The notes under the pieces are model-generated. The model worked only from the letters and a program-made list of their open reading frames with translations. It had not been told where the DNA came from and did no database searches. A stretch of 64,000 bases of DNA from Olivibacter sp. XZL3. GTDB lineage: Bacteria > Bacteroidota > Bacteroidia > Sphingobacteriales > Sphingobacteriaceae. Positions 9,302 through 52,891 of the stretch are shown one piece after another. The position numbers and the translations under genes were made by a program. Positions within the stretch are counted from its first letter, which is position 1. Every line of letters begins with the position of its first letter. The DNA lies in contig NZ_SBJH01000041.1 in NCBI RefSeq assembly GCF_004368405.1, forward strand, positions 1 through 64,000, given 5' to 3'.

Positions 9302-10735
9302 ATGGCCACAAGTAAGTCACAGGGAGAGTTTAGTTTCTTTAATGATGTTTGCGAATTTTTTGACCATGCAGCCCAGTTCACGAATCACGATAAAGGCTTG
9401 TTGGATCAGATAAAAGCTTGTAATAGCGTTTATCGTTTCCGTTTCCCAATCCGAAGAGCGAATGGTAAATTGGAGGTTATTGATGCATGGCGTGTGGAAC
9501 ATTCGCATCATAAATCGCCTACCAAGGGAGGAATCCGCTACAGTGAAATGGTCAACGAGGACGAGGTGATGGCGCTTGCAGCATTGATGACCTATAAATG
9601 TGCAATCGTCAACGTTCCTTTCGGCGGGGCAAAAGGAGGGATTTGTATCAATCCAAGGGATTATTCGGTGCCTGAGCTGGAAACGATTACCCGACGATAT
9701 ACAGTCGAATTGGTCAAGAAAAATTTTATTGGGCCCGCAATTGACGTTCCGGCGCCGGATTATGGTACCGGTGAGCGGGAAATGAGCTGGATCGCTGACA
9801 CTTACCTAACGATGAATCCCGGTCAATTAGACGCATTGGGAAGTGTTACAGGAAAGCCCCTTTCTTTGAGTGGTATTGATGGAAGGAAAGCTGCAACAGG
9901 CAGGGGTGTTGCCATCGCGATTCGGGAATGCGCCGATATTGCAGAGGACATGAAGGCATTGGGCCTAACACCCGGCATCGCAGGTAAACGCGTAATTGTG
10001 CAAGGACTCGGTAATGTGGGCTATAATACAGCAAAAGTGCTGGAAGAGTATGGCGCCGTTATTGTTGGAATCTGCGAGTACGATGGCGCTCTGTATAACG
10101 AGGATGGTTTAGACGTTGATGCGATCTTAGAACACAGAAGAAACACTGGTACCGTTTTAGGCTACAAGAAAGCGAAGCAAGAGTTTACAAATCCAAGTGA
10201 GGGCTTGGAACAAGCATGCGATATATTGGTACCCGCCGCCTTGGAAAAGCAAATCACGGAAGACAACATCGGAAGGATAAAGGCCAAAATTATTGCTGAA
10301 GGTGCGAATGGGCCGACCACGCCGAAGGCGGAGGAAATATTTACAAAAAATGGGGGCATTATTATTCCCGATATGTACTGCAATGCAGGTGGTGTAACGG
10401 TTTCTTATTTCGAGTGGCTGAAGAATCTATCGCATGTCGCCTTTGGACGTATGGACAAACGTTATGAAGAAACGGCCAATAGGAATATCGTCAATATGGT
10501 GGAGGCTGTCACGGGCGTTACGTTGACAAGCGATCAGCGAAGCGTGATTATAAAAGGCGCTTCAGAGCTTGAATTGGTAAATTCTGGCTTGGAGGACACC
10601 ATGATCCGATCTTATCACGAGATTAGAAGAATAAAAAATGCAAACAATAACATCGGTACCTTACGTACCGCCGCTTTTGTAGGTTCTATTGACAAAATAG
10701 CCACCTCTTATCTTAATATGGGAATTTGGCCTTAA
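9302..10735 (+). CDS. Glu/Leu/Phe/Val dehydrogenase (glutamate dehydrogenase type)
   Basis: Oxidatively deaminates an amino acid, most likely glutamate to 2-oxoglutarate, with NAD(P). It is 477 residues. The catalytic region [15 protein letters not shown] (68-82) and PFGGAKGGI with catalytic K111 fit the hexameric family. A Rossmann nucleotide-binding motif follows in [20 protein letters not shown] near 227-246. The C-terminal part has [15 protein letters not shown] and [17 protein letters not shown], as in glutamate dehydrogenases. It starts 66 bp after ccmD and ends at a strong terminator. Coenzyme preference cannot be judged safely, so no gene symbol is given. Confidence 0.9.
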
Positions 10736-10773
10736 CGGTAAAGAGGGTCGCCGCTTGGGGTGGAAAGCAAATA

Positions 10774-10809
10774 AAAAAAGCTATCGGAGTGCATTCGATA
10801 GCTTTTTTT
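10774..10809. terminator. Bidirectional intrinsic terminator between glutamate dehydrogenase and lon
   Basis: The arm AAAAAAGCTATCG (10774-10786) pairs perfectly with CGATAGCTTTTTT (10796-10808). The A-run and T-run on either side let it serve both convergent genes. Confidence 0.88.
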
Positions 10810-10820
10810 ATTTATTAAAG

Positions 10821-10869
10821 TTTTGACTTTTGACTTTTGACTTTTGACTTTTGAATTTTGACTTTTACC
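10821..10869. repeat. Heptanucleotide tandem repeat array
   Basis: Seven 7-bp units in a row. The first four and the sixth are TTTTGAC, the fifth is TTTTGAA and the last is TTTTACC. The array begins 12 bp beyond the terminator and ends 32 bp from the lon stop codon. A second 7-bp array with a different unit lies behind relA/spoT at 23367-23429. Confidence 0.9.
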
Positions 10870-10901
10870 ATCCCTACGGGAGGCAAGCTTTCGGATTTTT
10901 C

Positions 10902-13358: not shown

Positions 13359-13724
13359 TTTTATGTTTTATGTTTTATATGGTAACAGGTTTTGGCCAAA
13401 ATGACAGTTGCCCTGCTATTTTCTTTTGTAAATGATCGAATAGATAATGGTGCAAGGGTTATGCCAATGTCTATTTAATCGATTTTTTTTACTATTCATG
13501 TCATATTTTCAGATGGGGTGTTGCGCTTTCTTTGCAATGATACTACAATAAAATTAAAAGCCTGTAAATGAATAATATTCAAGGTGACACAATAAAATAC
13601 ACAATTTTTAGTTTATTTTTGTGTCGAAATGGCAATTGAATTGTTATCTTAGAGAAGGGATAGACCCTTGGGCTTATACTAAGGTGACATAATGGCCTTC
13701 GAGGAACAAAAGAATTTTAATTAA
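13359..13724. other. Divergent intergenic region between lon and the TPR gene
   Basis: This 366-bp AT-rich region holds the control signals of two divergent genes and no supportable ORF. A TATTTTTG box at 13614-13621 points to the TPR gene, without a TTG at the usual distance. A 13-bp direct repeat AAGGTGACAyAAT occurs at 13581-13593 and 13681-13693, exactly 100 bp apart, with the first copy sitting where a -33 element would lie. The stretch near 13660-13678 resembles the leader of the serine palmitoyltransferase gene. Confidence 0.6.
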
Positions 13725-19957: not shown

Positions 19958-19987
19958 CATCGAGGCGACTTGGTCTTGCATAAGGGC

Positions 19988-21289
19988 CTATGGCAGCGTA
20001 AAATCGCTATAGCTAACCCCCAATAATTGTAAGATGGCGCTGGCTTTTAAAAGGCATTCTTGATATTCGTTTAGGGCATTTGCTTCAGCGGTGATTGCTC
20101 CGCCAACGTGAAAAGAAAGCCTTTTTCTGTTTGTATTATATAAGAGGGTACGAATGACTACATTAAAATCGTAATCTCCATCAGGCGCGAAATAGCCTAT
20201 ACTGCCTGCGTAGATTCCTCTTCCGCTCGACTCGTACTGATCAATTAAGCGCATAGCGTTAACCTTTGGGGCACCGGTCATTGATCCTGCGGGAAAGGTA
20301 TTTTTGATGCTTTCGGTAAGTTCAAGCTGGTCCTTTTCCCTTGCGGTGATCGTTGAAATAAGTTGATGCACTTGTTTAAAAGTATAAACCCCCATCAGCT
20401 CCGCAACGTTGACTGAAGCCGGCTCAGCACTTTTGGTCAAATCGTTCCGCACCAGGTCGACAATCATGATATTCTCGCTGATTTCCTTTTTATCTGCTTT
20501 AAGTTTGTTCAACAGCCGTGAATCTTCTTCTTTCGTTTTTCCGCGAGGAGCTGTTCCTTTGATAGGTTGAGAAATCAGCAAGCGGTCTCTTTTAGCCAAA
20601 AAGCGTTCGGGCGAAGCAGAAATAATGTGATGTTCCTTAGCTTTAAAGTAAGCGGAAAAAGGAGTGGGGGAAATGTCACTGAGGCGGTAATAAGCCTCTA
20701 TCGGATTGAGCGCAACGTCTTCCGCAAAAAATTCCTGACAGAGGTTTACTTCATAAATATCACCTTGATGAATATGTCTTTGTAATTGTTGGAATGCTGC
20801 AATATAATTTTCTTTAGCCATTTTCGCCTCTATCTTTCCATGGAATACGAAGGGCTTTTCAGGTAGAGCCGTGTTAACTATTTGTTCATAGATAATGTCG
20901 GTCGGCGTATCACTTTCAATGGTTAGCCGGTCGCCTTTTATTAGGATCAAATGTTTTGGCACAAAGAAGTAGGCATTGGGAGTTTGTTGCTCACTCGGGT
21001 GGGACGTGTTGAGCGTCTCGATCTCATTTTTCAGATCATAGGCTAAGAAGCCGGGTATCCAGCTTCCCTGGTGAGCATTTAGAAATGCTTGAAGGGCCTG
21101 AAAGTTAGCGCTGGTTTCCCCTGTAAATTCCGCTGCGGTACCGGCGGCAATCAGCGCATCGAATTTACTATATGGATCATGGGCTCTTCCGTTGCTTAGC
21201 AAACCGCAAGCAGTATTAAACAAAGAAGCCCATTGCAGGGCTTTCTTTGTAAAATGACTAGGGTCAATTTGATAATCTACGGAGGGCAT
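19988..21289 (-). CDS. pabB: Aminodeoxychorismate synthase component I (PabB-like)
   Basis: Chorismate-utilising enzyme that aminates chorismate to 4-amino-4-deoxychorismate, a folate precursor. The fold blocks are present: GDIYEVNLCQEF near 176-187, SASPERFL, and SRLLNKLKADKKEISENIMIVDLVRNDL. Also present are FPAGSMTGAPKVNAMRLID and RGIYAGSIGYF. PIKGT at 242-246 has lysine at 244. The lysine form is typical of PabB, whereas anthranilate synthase TrpE carries alanine there, so PabB is favoured. It is 433 residues. It is the second gene after purA, with a 5-bp gap, and no glutamine-amidotransferase partner gene is in the window. Confidence 0.85.
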   Translation of the reverse strand: MPSVDYQIDPSHFTKKALQWASLFNTACGLLSNGRAHDPYSKFDALIAAGTAAEFTGETSANFQALQAFLNAHQGSWIPGFLAYDLKNEIETLNTSHPSEQQTPNAYFFVPKHLILIKGDRLTIESDTPTDIIYEQIVNTALPEKPFVFHGKIEAKMAKENYIAAFQQLQRHIHQGDIYEVNLCQEFFAEDVALNPIEAYYRLSDISPTPFSAYFKAKEHHIISASPERFLAKRDRLLISQPIKGTAPRGKTKEEDSRLLNKLKADKKEISENIMIVDLVRNDLTKSAEPASVNVAELMGVYTFKQVHQLISTITAREKDQLELTESIKNTFPAGSMTGAPKVNAMRLIDQYESSGRGIYAGSIGYFAPDGDYDFNVVIRTLLYNTNRKRLSFHVGGAITAEANALNEYQECLLKASAILQLLGVSYSDFTLP

Positions 21290-22572: not shown

Positions 22573-22762
22573 GATTTGTTGTTGTATGTCGTTTAATTAA
22601 AAATTATAGGAGATTACAAAAATAAAAAGAGGCCTTCAAAAAGCGCGTTACCTTTTTTGAATTATGAAAGCGTTCAGCCAATAATTCATTTTTTTGATAA
22701 CAAGCAGCAATAATGATGCTTCTTTTTGAATACCTCGAAATATCGTATTTTACCCTGCATCG

Positions 22763-23263
22763 CTAAACAGAAACAACCTCTTTACGTCGGTTTTCGTTTA
22801 CTTCAGCTTTAGGGCAGTTTTCATTACACTCGCTACACACCCCATACAGGTTTAAGGAATGGTGTTTGATGTCAAATTTTAATAATTCTCCCATCATGCT
22901 TTGAATCTGATGAATTCTGGGATCACAAAACTCGACCACCTTACCACATTCGATACAGATGATATGATCGTGCTGTTTATAGCCATAGGACTTTTCGAAC
23001 TGAGCCATGTTCTTGCCAAACTGATGTTTGGTAACTAAATCACAGGACACCAAAAGTTCCAATGTGTTGTAAACGGTAGCTCGGCTTACCCGGTATTTTT
23101 TATTTTTCATGTGGATATATAAAGATTCCACATCAAAATGGTCATTTCTTGAATATATTTCTTCCAAGATGGCAAAGCGCTCGGGAGTTTTGCGCAGGCT
23201 CTTATTTTCGAGGTATGCCTCGAAAATTTTTCTGACCATACTTGTTGTTTCTGCTGTAGACAT
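22763..23263 (-). CDS. Fur family metal-responsive transcriptional regulator
   Basis: DNA-binding regulator of the Fur/Zur/PerR family, 166 residues. The winged-helix domain covers about 1-85 with RVSRATVYNTLELL as the recognition helix. The dimerisation half has HDH at 98-100, a CxxC pair at C103/C106, and a second pair at C143/C146. This is the structural zinc arrangement of the family. The regulatory metal site cannot be assigned by eye, so it may be a Fur, Zur or PerR type. A well-formed promoter lies directly upstream. It sits between relA/spoT and purA on the same strand, but likely as its own transcript. Confidence 0.9.
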   Translation of the reverse strand: MSTAETTSMVRKIFEAYLENKSLRKTPERFAILEEIYSRNDHFDVESLYIHMKNKKYRVSRATVYNTLELLVSCDLVTKHQFGKNMAQFEKSYGYKQHDHIICIECGKVVEFCDPRIHQIQSMMGELLKFDIKHHSLNLYGVCSECNENCPKAEVNENRRKEVVSV

Positions 23264-23282
23264 AATAATCCTTAATTATGTA

Positions 23283-23313
23283 CAAACTTAGCTAAATTGC
23301 TTCTTATATGCAA
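23283..23313 (-). promoter_or_regulatory. Bacteroidota-type promoter for the fur-family gene
   Basis: On the minus strand it reads TTG, a 20-nt spacer, then TAAGTTTG, an exact match to TTG-N17-23-TAnnTTTG. Transcription would start near 23279, leaving a leader of about 16 nt. Confidence 0.7.
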
Positions 23314-23366
23314 GTAACACAACGTATATACTACGCTTCCGGTTATCCTTGACATTCAGTTTATAA

Positions 23367-23429
23367 AGTTATCAGTTATCAGTTGTCAGTTGTCAGTTGC
23401 CAGTTATCAGTTGTGAGTTGCCGGTTGCA
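23367..23429. repeat. Heptanucleotide tandem repeat array behind relA/spoT
   Basis: Nine consecutive 7-bp units, mostly AGTTATC, AGTTGTC or AGTTGCC, with AGTTGTG once and GGTTGCA as the last, degenerate unit. The array ends 15 bp before the relA/spoT stop codon on the facing side and lies between that gene and the fur promoter. The unit differs from that of the array at 10821-10869, but the 7-bp period and the position behind a minus-strand gene are the same. Confidence 0.9.
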
Positions 23430-23444
23430 TATAACCTACGACCT

Positions 23445-25658
23445 TTATCCTTCCGAATCAAAACGTGTAATTCCCGTTATGCCTTTAATTTGCTTGAGCT
23501 TTTTTATCAGGCTATCCAAATGTTCCGTATTATTCACGTACACCATGATCGATCCTTCAAAAATACCCTGATTACTGGTGATCGTGATGGATCGTATGTT
23601 GATTTTAAAATCTTGTGAAATGACGGTCGTAATCCGGTTCACTAAGCCGACGTCGTCTATTCCTACAATACGTAAGCCTGTAAGAAATGCCAGTTCCTGT
23701 TGAGAAGTCCATTTAGCTTTAACGATCCGGTAGCCGTAATTAGCCATCAGCTTGGAAGCGTTAGGGCAATTCGTACGGTGGATCTTGATTCCATCGTTAA
23801 CAGTTACAAAGCCGAAGACGTCGTCGCCCGGAATAGGGTTACAACAAGCAGAAAGCGTATAGTCCAACTTTTGGAAGTCATCGCCGATTAATACCGTCTC
23901 TTTATCCTTTTTGTCGACTTTCCTCAATAAACCGTCCACATGTTGCTCAATTTTCGTGCTGGGCCCACTCGATGTGTCAACCGATTTCTCGGCTACTGCA
24001 AATTCTTTAAGTTGTTTCAGGTCGATATCTCCCTTAGCCACCCGATAGAACAGTTCTTGCGTAGAAGGCAACTTTAGGAAAGAGGCCAGTTTATTCAGGT
24101 TATCCGTATTGTAGGTAATCTTAATCGATTTCAGCTTCCGCTCTAAGATTTCTTTTCCGTCTTCTGCTATACGGCGTTTTTCTTCTTTTAAGGCAGATTT
24201 AATTTTCGATTTCGCTTTTGCTGTCACCACAAAATTCAACCAATCTTCTTTAGGCGTTTGCTTATTAGAAGTGATGATCTCTACTTGATCGCCATTGGAA
24301 AGTTTGTGAGAGAGGGGTACCAGTTTGTGGTTAACTTTGGCTCCGATACAGCTAGCGCCCAAGTCAGAGTGAATTTCAAAAGCGAAGTCGAGTGCTGTAG
24401 CATCCAACGGAAGTTGAATTAACGCACCTTTGGGAGTGAAAATGAATATTTCATCAGAAAAAAGATTCATTTTAAAATCGTCCACAAAATCGAGTGCATT
24501 TGATTCCGGATTACTCAGAATATCTCTTACTTTCTGTATCCACTGATCGAGTCCGCTATCAGAGTTCGACTCTTTATACTTCCAATGTGCGGCAAAACCT
24601 TTCTCGGCGATCTCATTCATTCGCTTTGTACGGATTTGCACTTCAACCCATTGGCCTTTAGGGCCCATTACGGTTGTGTGTAAAGATTCATAGCCATTTG
24701 CTTTAGGGGATGAAATCCAGTCGCGCAGCCGGTCGGGGTTCGGTCTATATAAATCAGTAACGATGGAATAAGCTTTCCAGCATTCCGCCTTCTCCATGTC
24801 CTGCGTGGTATCGATAATGACGCGGATTGCGAATAAATCATAGACCTCTTCAAAAGGGATCGATTTTTTCCGCATTTTATTCCAGATCGAATGGATCGAT
24901 TTAGGCCGACCGAAGACACTCGCTTTAATTCCCTGTTCTGCTAATATTTCTTGAATGGGGCCGATAAATTCTTTGATATAGCGCTCCCGCTCGGCCTTCT
25001 TTTCGTTCAGCTTCCTTGCGATAAATTTATAGGTATCCGGGTCGGTGTACTTCATGGAAAGATCTTCCAACTCGGATTTGATGGCGTATAAACCTAGGCG
25101 ATGCGCGAGTGGTGCATATAAATAGCTGGTTTCAGACGCAATTTTCAGTTGCTTATCACGTGCCATGAATTCCATGGTGCGCATGTTGTGTAAGCGGTCT
25201 GCCAATTTAATGAGGATCACGCGTACATCGTCGGCAAGCGTGAGCAACATCTTTCTGAAATTCTCTGCCTGTATAGAGCTGTTGGGATCGAAAATGCCTG
25301 ATATTTTGGTCAAGCCGTCGATGATTTTAGCAACTTTTTTACCGAATTTGTTTTCAATCTCTTCCAGGGTTATCTCGGTATCCTCCACGACGTCATGGAG
25401 TAATGCACAAACAATGGAAGTTGTGCCTAAACCGATTTCCTCTGCCGCAATTTGCGCAACAGCGATGGGGTGGTAGATATACGGTTCTCCGGATTTGCGG
25501 CGCATGTCTTTATGATTCTCCAAAGCCATGTCAAATGCCCGCCGGATCATTTGCTTATCTCCTTTTTGTAGAGTCGGTTTGCATGCTCTTAATAATGCAC
25601 GGTACCGTTTTAATATCTCTTTTTTCTCAGCCTCTAAATCTATCACTAATTCCTTCAT
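23445..25658 (-). CDS. Bifunctional RelA/SpoT (p)ppGpp synthetase/hydrolase
   Basis: Controls the stringent response by making and degrading (p)ppGpp. It is 737 residues, typical of long Rel enzymes. The hydrolase domain is intact, with YHPIAVAQI near 62-70 and the HD motif ALLHDVVEDTE at 85-95. The synthetase domain follows with SVFGRPKSIHSIWNKM and the Mg-binding region YDLFAIRVI, then GYESLHTTV. A TGS domain lies near residue 400 (FIFTPKGALIQLP). A zinc-finger-like CCNPIPGDDVFGF segment and a C-terminal ACT domain close the protein. Retention of the HD motif argues for both activities. No clear promoter was found upstream. Confidence 0.95.
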   Translation of the reverse strand: MKELVIDLEAEKKEILKRYRALLRACKPTLQKGDKQMIRRAFDMALENHKDMRRKSGEPYIYHPIAVAQIAAEEIGLGTTSIVCALLHDVVEDTEITLEEIENKFGKKVAKIIDGLTKISGIFDPNSSIQAENFRKMLLTLADDVRVILIKLADRLHNMRTMEFMARDKQLKIASETSYLYAPLAHRLGLYAIKSELEDLSMKYTDPDTYKFIARKLNEKKAERERYIKEFIGPIQEILAEQGIKASVFGRPKSIHSIWNKMRKKSIPFEEVYDLFAIRVIIDTTQDMEKAECWKAYSIVTDLYRPNPDRLRDWISSPKANGYESLHTTVMGPKGQWVEVQIRTKRMNEIAEKGFAAHWKYKESNSDSGLDQWIQKVRDILSNPESNALDFVDDFKMNLFSDEIFIFTPKGALIQLPLDATALDFAFEIHSDLGASCIGAKVNHKLVPLSHKLSNGDQVEIITSNKQTPKEDWLNFVVTAKAKSKIKSALKEEKRRIAEDGKEILERKLKSIKITYNTDNLNKLASFLKLPSTQELFYRVAKGDIDLKQLKEFAVAEKSVDTSSGPSTKIEQHVDGLLRKVDKKDKETVLIGDDFQKLDYTLSACCNPIPGDDVFGFVTVNDGIKIHRTNCPNASKLMANYGYRIVKAKWTSQQELAFLTGLRIVGIDDVGLVNRITTVISQDFKINIRSITITSNQGIFEGSIMVYVNNTEHLDSLIKKLKQIKGITGITRFDSEG

Positions 25659-25808
25659 GGTTCAAAATTCGTAAATATCTATATCTATATGCAAACAAAT
25701 TTTATTTCCTACCTTTGATATGGCAAACCTCCCGAAGGTTTAATAAAAATTGTATTAGTCGCCAATTTTTATTTAACTTTATTGGAAGTTTTAGTAAGAG
25801 CTAAATCT

Positions 25809-51106: not shown

Positions 51107-52891
51107 TTGGAAACACGGAGCGGGATTATTTACAGAATCAATCAATGGCGCATTCGGAAAATTTCAAATCGAAACTTTCTGGTGATTTTGGCTGTAGTTG
51201 TTGGGCTAATTGGGGGCGTGGCCGCATCAGGACTAAAGGCGCTTACACACGGTATAGCCGCCTTTTTACAGAACGACGTACAGTCAGAATACAAATATTA
51301 CTTGTACCTATTCTTCCCGCTTATAGGGATCTTGCTAACGGTTATCTACGTCCGGCGTTTTATCCGAAAGGGAAAATTTGAACATGGGATTACGCCTATA
51401 TTATATGCCATCTCCAGAAAATCCAGCAGAATTGAAAATCATAACATATACTCTCAGATCATTACTTCAGCACTTACGGTCGGCTTTGGCGGTTCATCAG
51501 GGTTGGAAGCGCCAATCGCTTACAGTGGTTCAGCCATCGGTTCCAATGTAGCTCGGTTCTTCGGCCTTAATTATCGCGAGGTTACCATGTTGCTCGCTTG
51601 TGGTGCCGCAGCGGGTATTGCCGGCGCATTTAATAGCCCAGTTGCCGGAATGGTATTCGCTATTGAAATCCTGTTGCCTGAGTTTTCAATTCCAGCTTTT
51701 ATTCCGTTACTTATGGCCGCTGCCACGGCATCGGTCGTGTCGAGGGTATTATATAGTGAACCACTATTTTATTTAGTTTCTGACGAGTGGGTTTTACCCG
51801 CGTTATTTTTTTATTTGTTATTAGGCGGGCTTGTCGGCCTTTTTTCCGTTTATTTCACCAAAGTGGACGGTTGGGTGAAGGGTTGGTTTGCTGCTGTAAA
51901 AAATCCTTACCATAAAATTTGGCTCGGTGGTTTAAGTTTAGGGATATTAATATTTATTTTTCCTGCATTGTACGGGGAGGGCTATATTGCTATTCAACAG
52001 CTCCTCCTTGGGAAATCGAATTCGTTATTAGCTAACAGCGTATTCTCCGATTATAAACATGTAGGTTGGATGGTTGTGGTTTATAGCCTTGTGACCGTCT
52101 TTGCTAAGTCTTTTGCTACGCTGATTACGCTTAACAGTGGCGGAAATGGCGGAACGTTTGGCCCCAGTTTAGTGATGGGTGGACTCTTGGGCTTTGTCTT
52201 TGCACATGGTGTCAATCTTACGGGGCTGACCTATCTTACTGAAGCCAATTTTATCGTTGCTGGTATGGCTGCCGCATTAAGTGGTATTATGCACGCTCCC
52301 TTAACGGCCATATTTCTTATTGCCGAGATAACGGGTGGTTATACCTTGATGGTGCCCCTGATGATTGTTTCGGCCATTTCTTATTTCATTAATAGGGCAG
52401 CAGTAAAGTATTCTATTTATACAAAAAATTTAGCGGCGCATGGCGATTGGCTTTCGCATGAAGACAAAGATAAAACGGTATTGAGAATGATGAAATTGCG
52501 TTATGTCTTAGAAACTAATTTCACCGTGCTGCGTCCGGATGAAAAGCCTATAGACAGGCGATCAGATATTATTCATACCAAAAGAAATATTTTTCCTGTT
52601 GTTGATGGAGAGCGCAAACTATTAGGCGTAATCTACAGTGAGCGTTTATTTAGCATTCTCATGGGAGAGGAGGTTTCGGACAAAACAATGAAAGAATTGG
52701 CCCAAGCTCCCATCGATGTGGTTCGTATGAATGCAAATATGTACGACGTTATGCGAAAGATGGACCGCGAAGACATTTGGATTTTGCCGGTGCTTGACGA
52801 GAATGACCATTATATGGGTTTTGTTTCCAAATCTGCAATTTTCAATAAATACAGGGCGCTATTAGTAAGGCAAGGCGCTTACTTAGACTAG
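51107..52891 (+). CDS. ClC-family chloride channel/transporter with CBS domains
   Basis: A 594-residue membrane protein of the ClC family, moving chloride or fluoride ions, with about twelve membrane segments. The gating region is GSSGLEAPIAYSGSAIGS, in which E134 takes the gate position but the usual GREGP has become GLEAP. GNGGTFGPSLVMGGLLG matches the GxFxP anion-site motif. Two CBS-like domains occupy about 450-580. The start is TTG at 51107, five bases after the upstream stop; no ATG lies near the expected N-terminus. It is coupled to the glycoside hydrolase gene. Ion selectivity is not established. Confidence 0.85.
   Translation: METRSGIIYRINQWRIRKISNRNFLVILAVVVGLIGGVAASGLKALTHGIAAFLQNDVQSEYKYYLYLFFPLIGILLTVIYVRRFIRKGKFEHGITPILYAISRKSSRIENHNIYSQIITSALTVGFGGSSGLEAPIAYSGSAIGSNVARFFGLNYREVTMLLACGAAAGIAGAFNSPVAGMVFAIEILLPEFSIPAFIPLLMAAATASVVSRVLYSEPLFYLVSDEWVLPALFFYLLLGGLVGLFSVYFTKVDGWVKGWFAAVKNPYHKIWLGGLSLGILIFIFPALYGEGYIAIQQLLLGKSNSLLANSVFSDYKHVGWMVVVYSLVTVFAKSFATLITLNSGGNGGTFGPSLVMGGLLGFVFAHGVNLTGLTYLTEANFIVAGMAAALSGIMHAPLTAIFLIAEITGGYTLMVPLMIVSAISYFINRAAVKYSIYTKNLAAHGDWLSHEDKDKTVLRMMKLRYVLETNFTVLRPDEKPIDRRSDIIHTKRNIFPVVDGERKLLGVIYSERLFSILMGEEVSDKTMKELAQAPIDVVRMNANMYDVMRKMDREDIWILPVLDENDHYMGFVSKSAIFNKYRALLVRQGAYLD

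Follow-up and report, generated by a model that had tools for sequence, protein, structure and literature searches.

The heptad array between relA/spoT and fur of Olivibacter sp. XZL3, and the polarity of intergenic heptad tracts

The intergenic region between relA/spoT and fur in Olivibacter sp. XZL3 houses nine tandem 7-bp units (positions 23367-23429, plus strand, of the window, i.e. the whole 64,000-nucleotide stretch that was analyzed). The question raised by this locus is whether the array serves one of its two neighbors or is one of many such tracts in the genome. A preliminary, sequence-only reading took the units to be of the AGTTRTC type, placed them 15 bp from a minus-strand stop codon, and grouped them with another heptad array in the window, both being regarded as lying behind global stress genes. 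The 15-bp gap is correct, as the relA/spoT open reading frame (ORF) ends at 23445. The units from 23367 onward are AGTTATC, AGTTATC, AGTTGTC, AGTTGTC, AGTTGCC, AGTTATC, AGTTGTG, AGTTGCC, and GGTTGCA; all nine are real, but just five of them fit AGTTRTC exactly, and AGTTRYC is the better consensus. The next gene, fur, starts 103 bp from the other side of the array, which is therefore also located upstream of fur, a point that the earlier reading omitted. The features of the region are collected in Table 1.

Table 1. Features of the relA/spoT-fur region and other short arrays of the window
Feature	Position	Strand	Remark
TTTTGAC array (other class), between convergent genes, beside a terminator-like hairpin	10804..10866	+	6.6 copies
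Short TTTTATG array at a gene start, period 7	13359..13378	+	Array scans
Fur-family regulator gene, downstream of the array	22763..23263	-	Top matches are Fur and PerR models, all under cut-off
fur promoter-like site, TAAGTTTG plus upstream TTG, between the array and fur	23283..23313	-	By-eye comparison
Heptad array, nine AGTTRYC-type units	23367..23429	+	Reads GRYAACT on the relA/fur sense strand
Spacer at the relA stop	23430..23444	-	AGGTCGT AGGTTAT, two loose opposite-orientation units; weak, by eye
relA/spoT gene, 737 aa; upstream of the array in the sense direction	23445..25658	-	TIGR00691, 665 bits (cut-off 499)

The promoter-like site of fur was recognized using a consensus that we take to be of the Bacteroidota type, and the relA array lies outside this conserved site. 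By eye, the TAnnTTTG stretch before fur is present in four same-genus relatives (G001, G002, G003, and G004), in which the array is absent as such. A search of 22700-25800 for known RNA families (to E = 1) gave a single match, which was located inside relA and was far under the gathering score. GGG occurs in none of the nine units, and the array has no quadruplex-capable G-tract. Elsewhere in the window, at 10735-10901, a terminator-like hairpin between convergent genes is followed by TTTTGAC units; G001 has opposite-facing units on the other side of this hairpin.

A chance origin of the relA array was ruled out by dinucleotide shuffles and by a period scan. With up to two mismatches allowed, three successive AGTTRYC units were matched six times in the window, always within the relA array; 100 dinucleotide shuffles gave 0.01 matches on average. 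Genome-wide, the same pattern had 193 overlapping 21-mer matches, and the reversed pattern had none. A second class, TTTTGAC-like, gave 79 matches with up to three mismatches, compared to 5 for the control. The period scan covered periods 4-15 in a sample of 1,221,922 bases (23% of the genome), with home-made ORF calls serving as genes. For period 7, it yielded 56 arrays in this stricter scan, 54 of them noncoding and 2 coding; there were 45 noncoding and 1 coding arrays of period 14, and 0-3 noncoding and 0-6 coding arrays for each remaining period; block-shuffled sequence contained one period-7 array. A looser scan of the sample returned 88 arrays, four of which were inside called genes. The search for tandem 7-mers that the sequence-only reading had proposed found period-7 arrays to be abundant and overwhelmingly noncoding in this sample. 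Classes among them are AGTTRYC (a), GTTNTAR (c), RGCNNTA (d), and TTTTKAM (e). Many arrays are best fitted by periods of 14, 21, 28, or 35, which is consistent with the duplication of several units together. The relA array is longer than chance allows, in a genome that over-represents period 7, and in this sense it is a long period-7 simple sequence repeat.

Two arrays in 64 kb had been considered more than chance would produce. This is so with respect to random sequence, but not with respect to the genome itself, for which about 4.6 per 64 kb are expected; the window contains four of the 88 arrays of the sample (at 10804, 13359, 23367, and 30020, the last of which was called within an ORF). 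The proposed link to global stress genes is unsupported by the location and density of the arrays: those assigned to a class occur in 54 intergenic regions of the sample, at a density like that of the window. Nor are the arrays restricted to positions behind genes, as they are found at either gene end, starts included. An equal spread inside and upstream of genes with no orientation bias, which the same reading had named as evidence against itself, was not observed, since arrays were nearly absent from coding sequence and their orientation bias was strong.

Other repeats were noted in passing. Four similar period-22 arrays of the AATTTTGAAAATACATGAAATTT type, a separate dispersed repeat, are located in contig C110 (ca. 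19964-20038, 20565-20636, 52739-52824, and 71407-71476), and positions 700-1400 of that contig contain two alike segments, in which AGTGATG heptads occur together with recurring AATGCAGAAAA-like motifs. TTTTGAC arrays are situated within about 400 bp of contig ends in C78, C100, C103, and C116, which suggests that the assembly broke at copies of a repeat bearing them.

The orientation of the arrays relative to genes was tallied on the outward strand, which for class a is the AGTTRYC strand. After 16 of the 88 arrays had been dropped, 58 of 72 arrays of all classes had their nearest gene beyond the 5' end of the outward strand (p = 1.6e-7). When one array per intergenic region was counted, 44 of 54 followed this polarity rule. 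For the TTTTKAM class, the outward strand was defined once its polarity was already known; when these arrays are left out, the tally is 49 vs. 13 (p = 0.000005). Classes c and d, taken singly, fell short of significance (p = 0.12 and 0.078, respectively). The 5' end was within 25 bp of a gene in 22 class a arrays (17 at stops and 5 at opposite-strand gene starts), and the 3' end was that close in three, with one array entering both tallies. The relA array is among the three and is thus an exception to the rule: the relA stop is 16 bp from its AGTTRYC 3' end (using an array call that ends at 23428), and it is the more distant fur, 103 bp away, that faces the 5' end.

The partly shared shape that had been perceived in the units of the two arrays is a loose likeness; what they have in common is an RG step on their outward strands (AGTCAAA and AGTTRYC). 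Such a step was present in at least 70% of units on 33 of 72 outward strands vs. 4 of 72 inward strands, and RG is therefore a tendency, not a definition. Neighboring arrays sharing one region were convergent in 10 cases, divergent in 1, and in the same direction in 7. The supply of stop codons was rejected as a cause of the polarity by reasoning that the outward AGTTRYC strand is stop-free in all frames, yet follows stop codons. A gradient in unit purity, which might have betrayed directional growth, gave no signal and was also dropped; imperfect units numbered 52 vs. 61 in all arrays and 8 vs. 3 in the 18 arrays away from genes.

The rule was also examined in other genomes. A scan of named genomes for (AGTTRYC)4 returned at least 113 stretches, and the 80 loci listed were tested. 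Among these loci, 57 of 65 usable arrays obeyed the rule (p = 3e-10); the count started from 102 arrays under stricter ORFs and left out 13 ORF-internal arrays and 24 that lacked a gene to one side. When all 13 were counted against the rule, the tally among the loci listed was 57 vs. 21 (p = 0.00006); about five ORF-internal arrays were near an N-terminus, in the disfavored orientation. A separate count over the same 80 loci (99 arrays, 15 of them inside ORFs) placed the 5' end of the outward strand at a stop 30 times and at a start 25 times, vs. 11 cases in which the 3' end was the one close to a gene. Outside Cyanobacteria, 23 of 25 arrays at the loci listed obeyed the rule. Counts for these loci lean toward it in nine of ten broad groups, hand-assigned from record titles; more than three usable arrays came from Cyanobacteria, Bacteroidota, and Acidobacteria only, and six of the nine agreeing groups have three or fewer. 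Thirty-nine arrays picked for their closeness to genes abut stop codons and ATGs tightly. In five further genomes of the class, with most arrays coming from G331 (another genus of the family), the rule held for 22 of 29 arrays (p = 0.008); with the six dropped ORF-internal arrays counted against it, the result was 22 vs. 13 (22 of 35, p = 0.18). With a shorter pattern, 41 of the 296 genomes from the phylum had a match; for the family, the figure was 34 of 151. Among the matches listed from the open-licence literature, there was no statement of the polarity rule for non-G-rich heptads across phyla.

The site was also compared with that of relatives. G001 (median identity of aligned DNA, 79%) is collinear with contig C87, and its relA-fur site has a stretch of nearly equal length with a few recognizable units. 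The period-7 score of this site is 37 in the present genome and 7 in G001, 8 in G004, 4 in G003, and 2 in G002, the threshold being 11. Because the G001 score is under the threshold and is not above that of G004, in which no array is visible, a history of slippage at the relA site is unsupported. Elsewhere, array positions are kept in G001 more often than the background would predict: a period-7 tract was present in 8 of 18 mapped array regions vs. 8 of 119 other regions (p = 0.00013), in a comparison that covered contigs C113 and C87 and left 2 array regions and 25 others unmapped. The 6.6 copies at 10804 correspond to three units in G001. At locus L142 (G021), upstream of fur, AGTCCRY heptads are followed by an inverted copy in an apparent hairpin, as judged by eye.

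Several known types of repeat resemble these arrays. REPIN- and MITE-type repeats are short and intergenic, with inverted arms and with bodies common to several loci. The array population likewise has short intergenic repeats, inverted arms, and shared bodies; it differs in that the arms are heptads, and the relA copy has no body. The Calothrix heptads that Mazel described in 1990 are reportedly named STRR. According to the available portions of two later papers (PMC4679880, PMC4692102), period 7 is over-represented in some genomes, both among the long simple sequence repeats of Mrazek 2007 and in the Calothrix heptads (Mazel 1990), and slippage was proposed; the likeness to the present arrays lies in the period and the proposed slippage, by description rather than by alignment of units.

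The available text of MacGregor 2015 (PMC4679880) reports TAACTGA repeats in Beggiatoaceae, Cyanobacteria, and five Bacteroidetes, notes that those of Maribeggiatoa are mostly just before, and facing, start codons, and proposes a post-transcriptional regulator that binds the repeats. The heptad class (AGTTRYC, with YAACTGR as its complement), the intergenic location, and the mixture with other heptads are the same here. In contrast to the repeats as described there, the relA array lies behind a stop codon and far from the next start, and several further heptad classes are present in this genome. Exact tandem TAACTGA (two or more) is absent from the relA array; its minus strand includes CAACTGA TAACTGA TAACTTT, and the degenerate YAACTGR alone recurs. 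The typical, though not universal, placement of TAACTGA repeats is forward and within a few bases of a start; the relA array is forward toward fur, at a distance of 103 bp. The horizontal transfer of one TAACTGA network is less likely, since the usable arrays among the loci listed come from ten broad groups (an argument made from group membership, not from a tree). In the portions available, Rehm 2015 (PMC4692102) describes the heptamers GGGAATC (two Xanthomonas) and GGGGAYT (Nostoc), which have the nearer ORF at their 5' side for any gene direction, as well as many convergent heptamer pairs in Xanthomonas, and discusses quadruplexes. The present population shares the intergenic location, the nearer 5'-side ORF, and the convergent pairs; the heptamers of Rehm 2015 have quadruplex-forming G-tracts and AGTTRYC does not, and the relA array disobeys the rule.

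What, then, is the relA array? Its placement between two regulators would suit a regulatory or phase-variable site for fur or relA, at which expression would be tuned by the number of units or a post-transcriptional regulator would attach. The start-codon placement of the Maribeggiatoa repeats (PMC4679880, as available) points the same way, as does G018, another genus of the family, whose relA-fur region (L137) has a period-7 tract with a score of 14, formed by AACTGCA heptads and an inverted copy. With the array 103 bp from the fur start and off the conserved promoter-like site, and with the low scores of all four same-genus relatives, such a role is highly improbable. It is unlikely, too, that the array is a transcription-end element that replaces a hairpin terminator of relA, e.g. 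by offering Rho evenly spaced YC steps. No intrinsic terminator (stable hairpin plus U-tract) was found at relA (z = +0.44 for the 3' flank and +1.27 for the whole region), and G001 likewise has no hairpin in this flank, whereas G003 (z = -4.53) and G002 (z = -2.20) do; however, G004 has neither an array nor a strong hairpin. Strong hairpins (z < -2.5) were present at a fraction of 0.00 of 16 tandem 3' ends with arrays vs. 0.23 of 278 others (Fisher p = 0.027), and at 0.20 of 10 vs. 0.42 of 124 convergent 3' ends (p = 0.31), but the z-scores themselves showed no significant difference (p = 0.18 and 0.22). Counted per 7 nt, YC steps are more frequent on the outward strand in class a (0.63 vs. 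0.38) and class e (0.54 vs. 0.12), but in classes c and d it is the inward strand that has more of them, and the relA sense strand of the array has two in nine units vs. seven on the other strand; Rho spacing therefore fails as a general account for these classes and for the relA sense strand. Many arrays, moreover, are located at gene starts.

The arrays could instead be the arms or ends of dispersed elements (MITE, REPIN, or small dispersed repeat) that fill intergenic regions, the relA copy being a remnant arm. This is possible but doubtful. Interior-side flanks shared sequence between loci in 49 of 75 cases (200 pairs), compared to 11 of 75 (7 pairs) for gene-side flanks, once pairs separated by less than 2 kb within a contig had been removed (51 of 75 and 15 of 75 before removal). 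The interior flanks lie in intergenic DNA and the gene-side ones mostly in coding sequence, a difference that by itself produces some asymmetry, and interior flanks may also contain further heptads. A shared body had 11 matches in the 1.22-Mb sample, and its fullest copies (two in C74 and one in C90) are flanked by AGTTRYC and TTTTKAM tracts. These shared flanks and the repeated body indicate that some of the heptad tracts move, or are copied, in the form of larger dispersed repeats. The relA region, however, is not among the 11 matches, its array is without the body, and one mobile family is unable to explain AGTTRYC-type units in ten groups. An intergenic body, ATTATTGATG...CATCAATGAGCCCTTCGGGG, with a UUCG-type hairpin motif was seen beside heptad tracts at C74:3615-3754, C74:11823-11955, C90:61945-62097, and C100:48590-48731; the C100 copy reads ATTATGGATG. 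In G331, heptad arrays are often inverted-repeat arms of long intergenic hairpins, and 10 of 15 hand-picked array regions folded with z <= -5; the three regions hand-picked from G059 and G413, which completed the folding set of 18, had no such hairpins. Array regions of the present genome folded no better than others (median z, -0.82, n = 39, vs. -1.06, n = 129; p = 0.63), and convergent regions with arrays folded worse (-0.63, n = 11, vs. -2.93, n = 16; p = 0.004), so the hairpin picture fails in this genome. Array-made hairpins are unsupported here by region folding and by 3'-end folding alike.

The preferred reading, to which a probability of roughly 0.55 is assigned, is that the relA array is a slippage-grown, nearly neutral intergenic heptad tract and an ordinary member of the genome's population; most likely, it has no specific part in the expression of relA or fur. 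Period 7 is uniquely favored, coding sequence is avoided, higher-order repeats are present, and copy number varies between two species at one site. Heptad tracts would grow and shrink via 7-bp slippage and would be retained as intergenic space tolerates them. Most have a fixed polarity, one strand leading away from the nearest gene, and some are convergent pairs able to form intergenic hairpins, a feature that is clear in a sister genus. The relA copy is a solitary, unstructured tract, at a place occupied by a hairpin in two of the four same-genus relatives. Slippage accounts neither for the recurrence of the unit in many phyla nor for the polarity.

A broader proposal, which we offer tentatively, is that heptads of many units across phyla share one rule, by which a given strand leaves the nearest gene, at its start or its stop and often a few bases off, and that a conserved directional or palindrome-forming DNA process builds such tracts up to gene edges, with the relA tract as one product. 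The rule is independent of gene direction and extends to units that have no G-tracts, which points to a process of this kind and means that quadruplexes cannot account for it in general. Polarity of this sort was reported previously for G-rich heptamers (Rehm 2015, PMC4692102, in the portions available), and here it extends to units without G-tracts and to many phyla. The relA array itself is ordinary for its genome, and it is the wider polarity pattern that merits attention. Why the unit has seven bases, why distant phyla have similar units, and why one strand faces outward are questions left unanswered in the available portions of MacGregor 2015 and Rehm 2015 (PMC4679880, PMC4692102). As the polarity rule can be counted in any genome, the question is testable.
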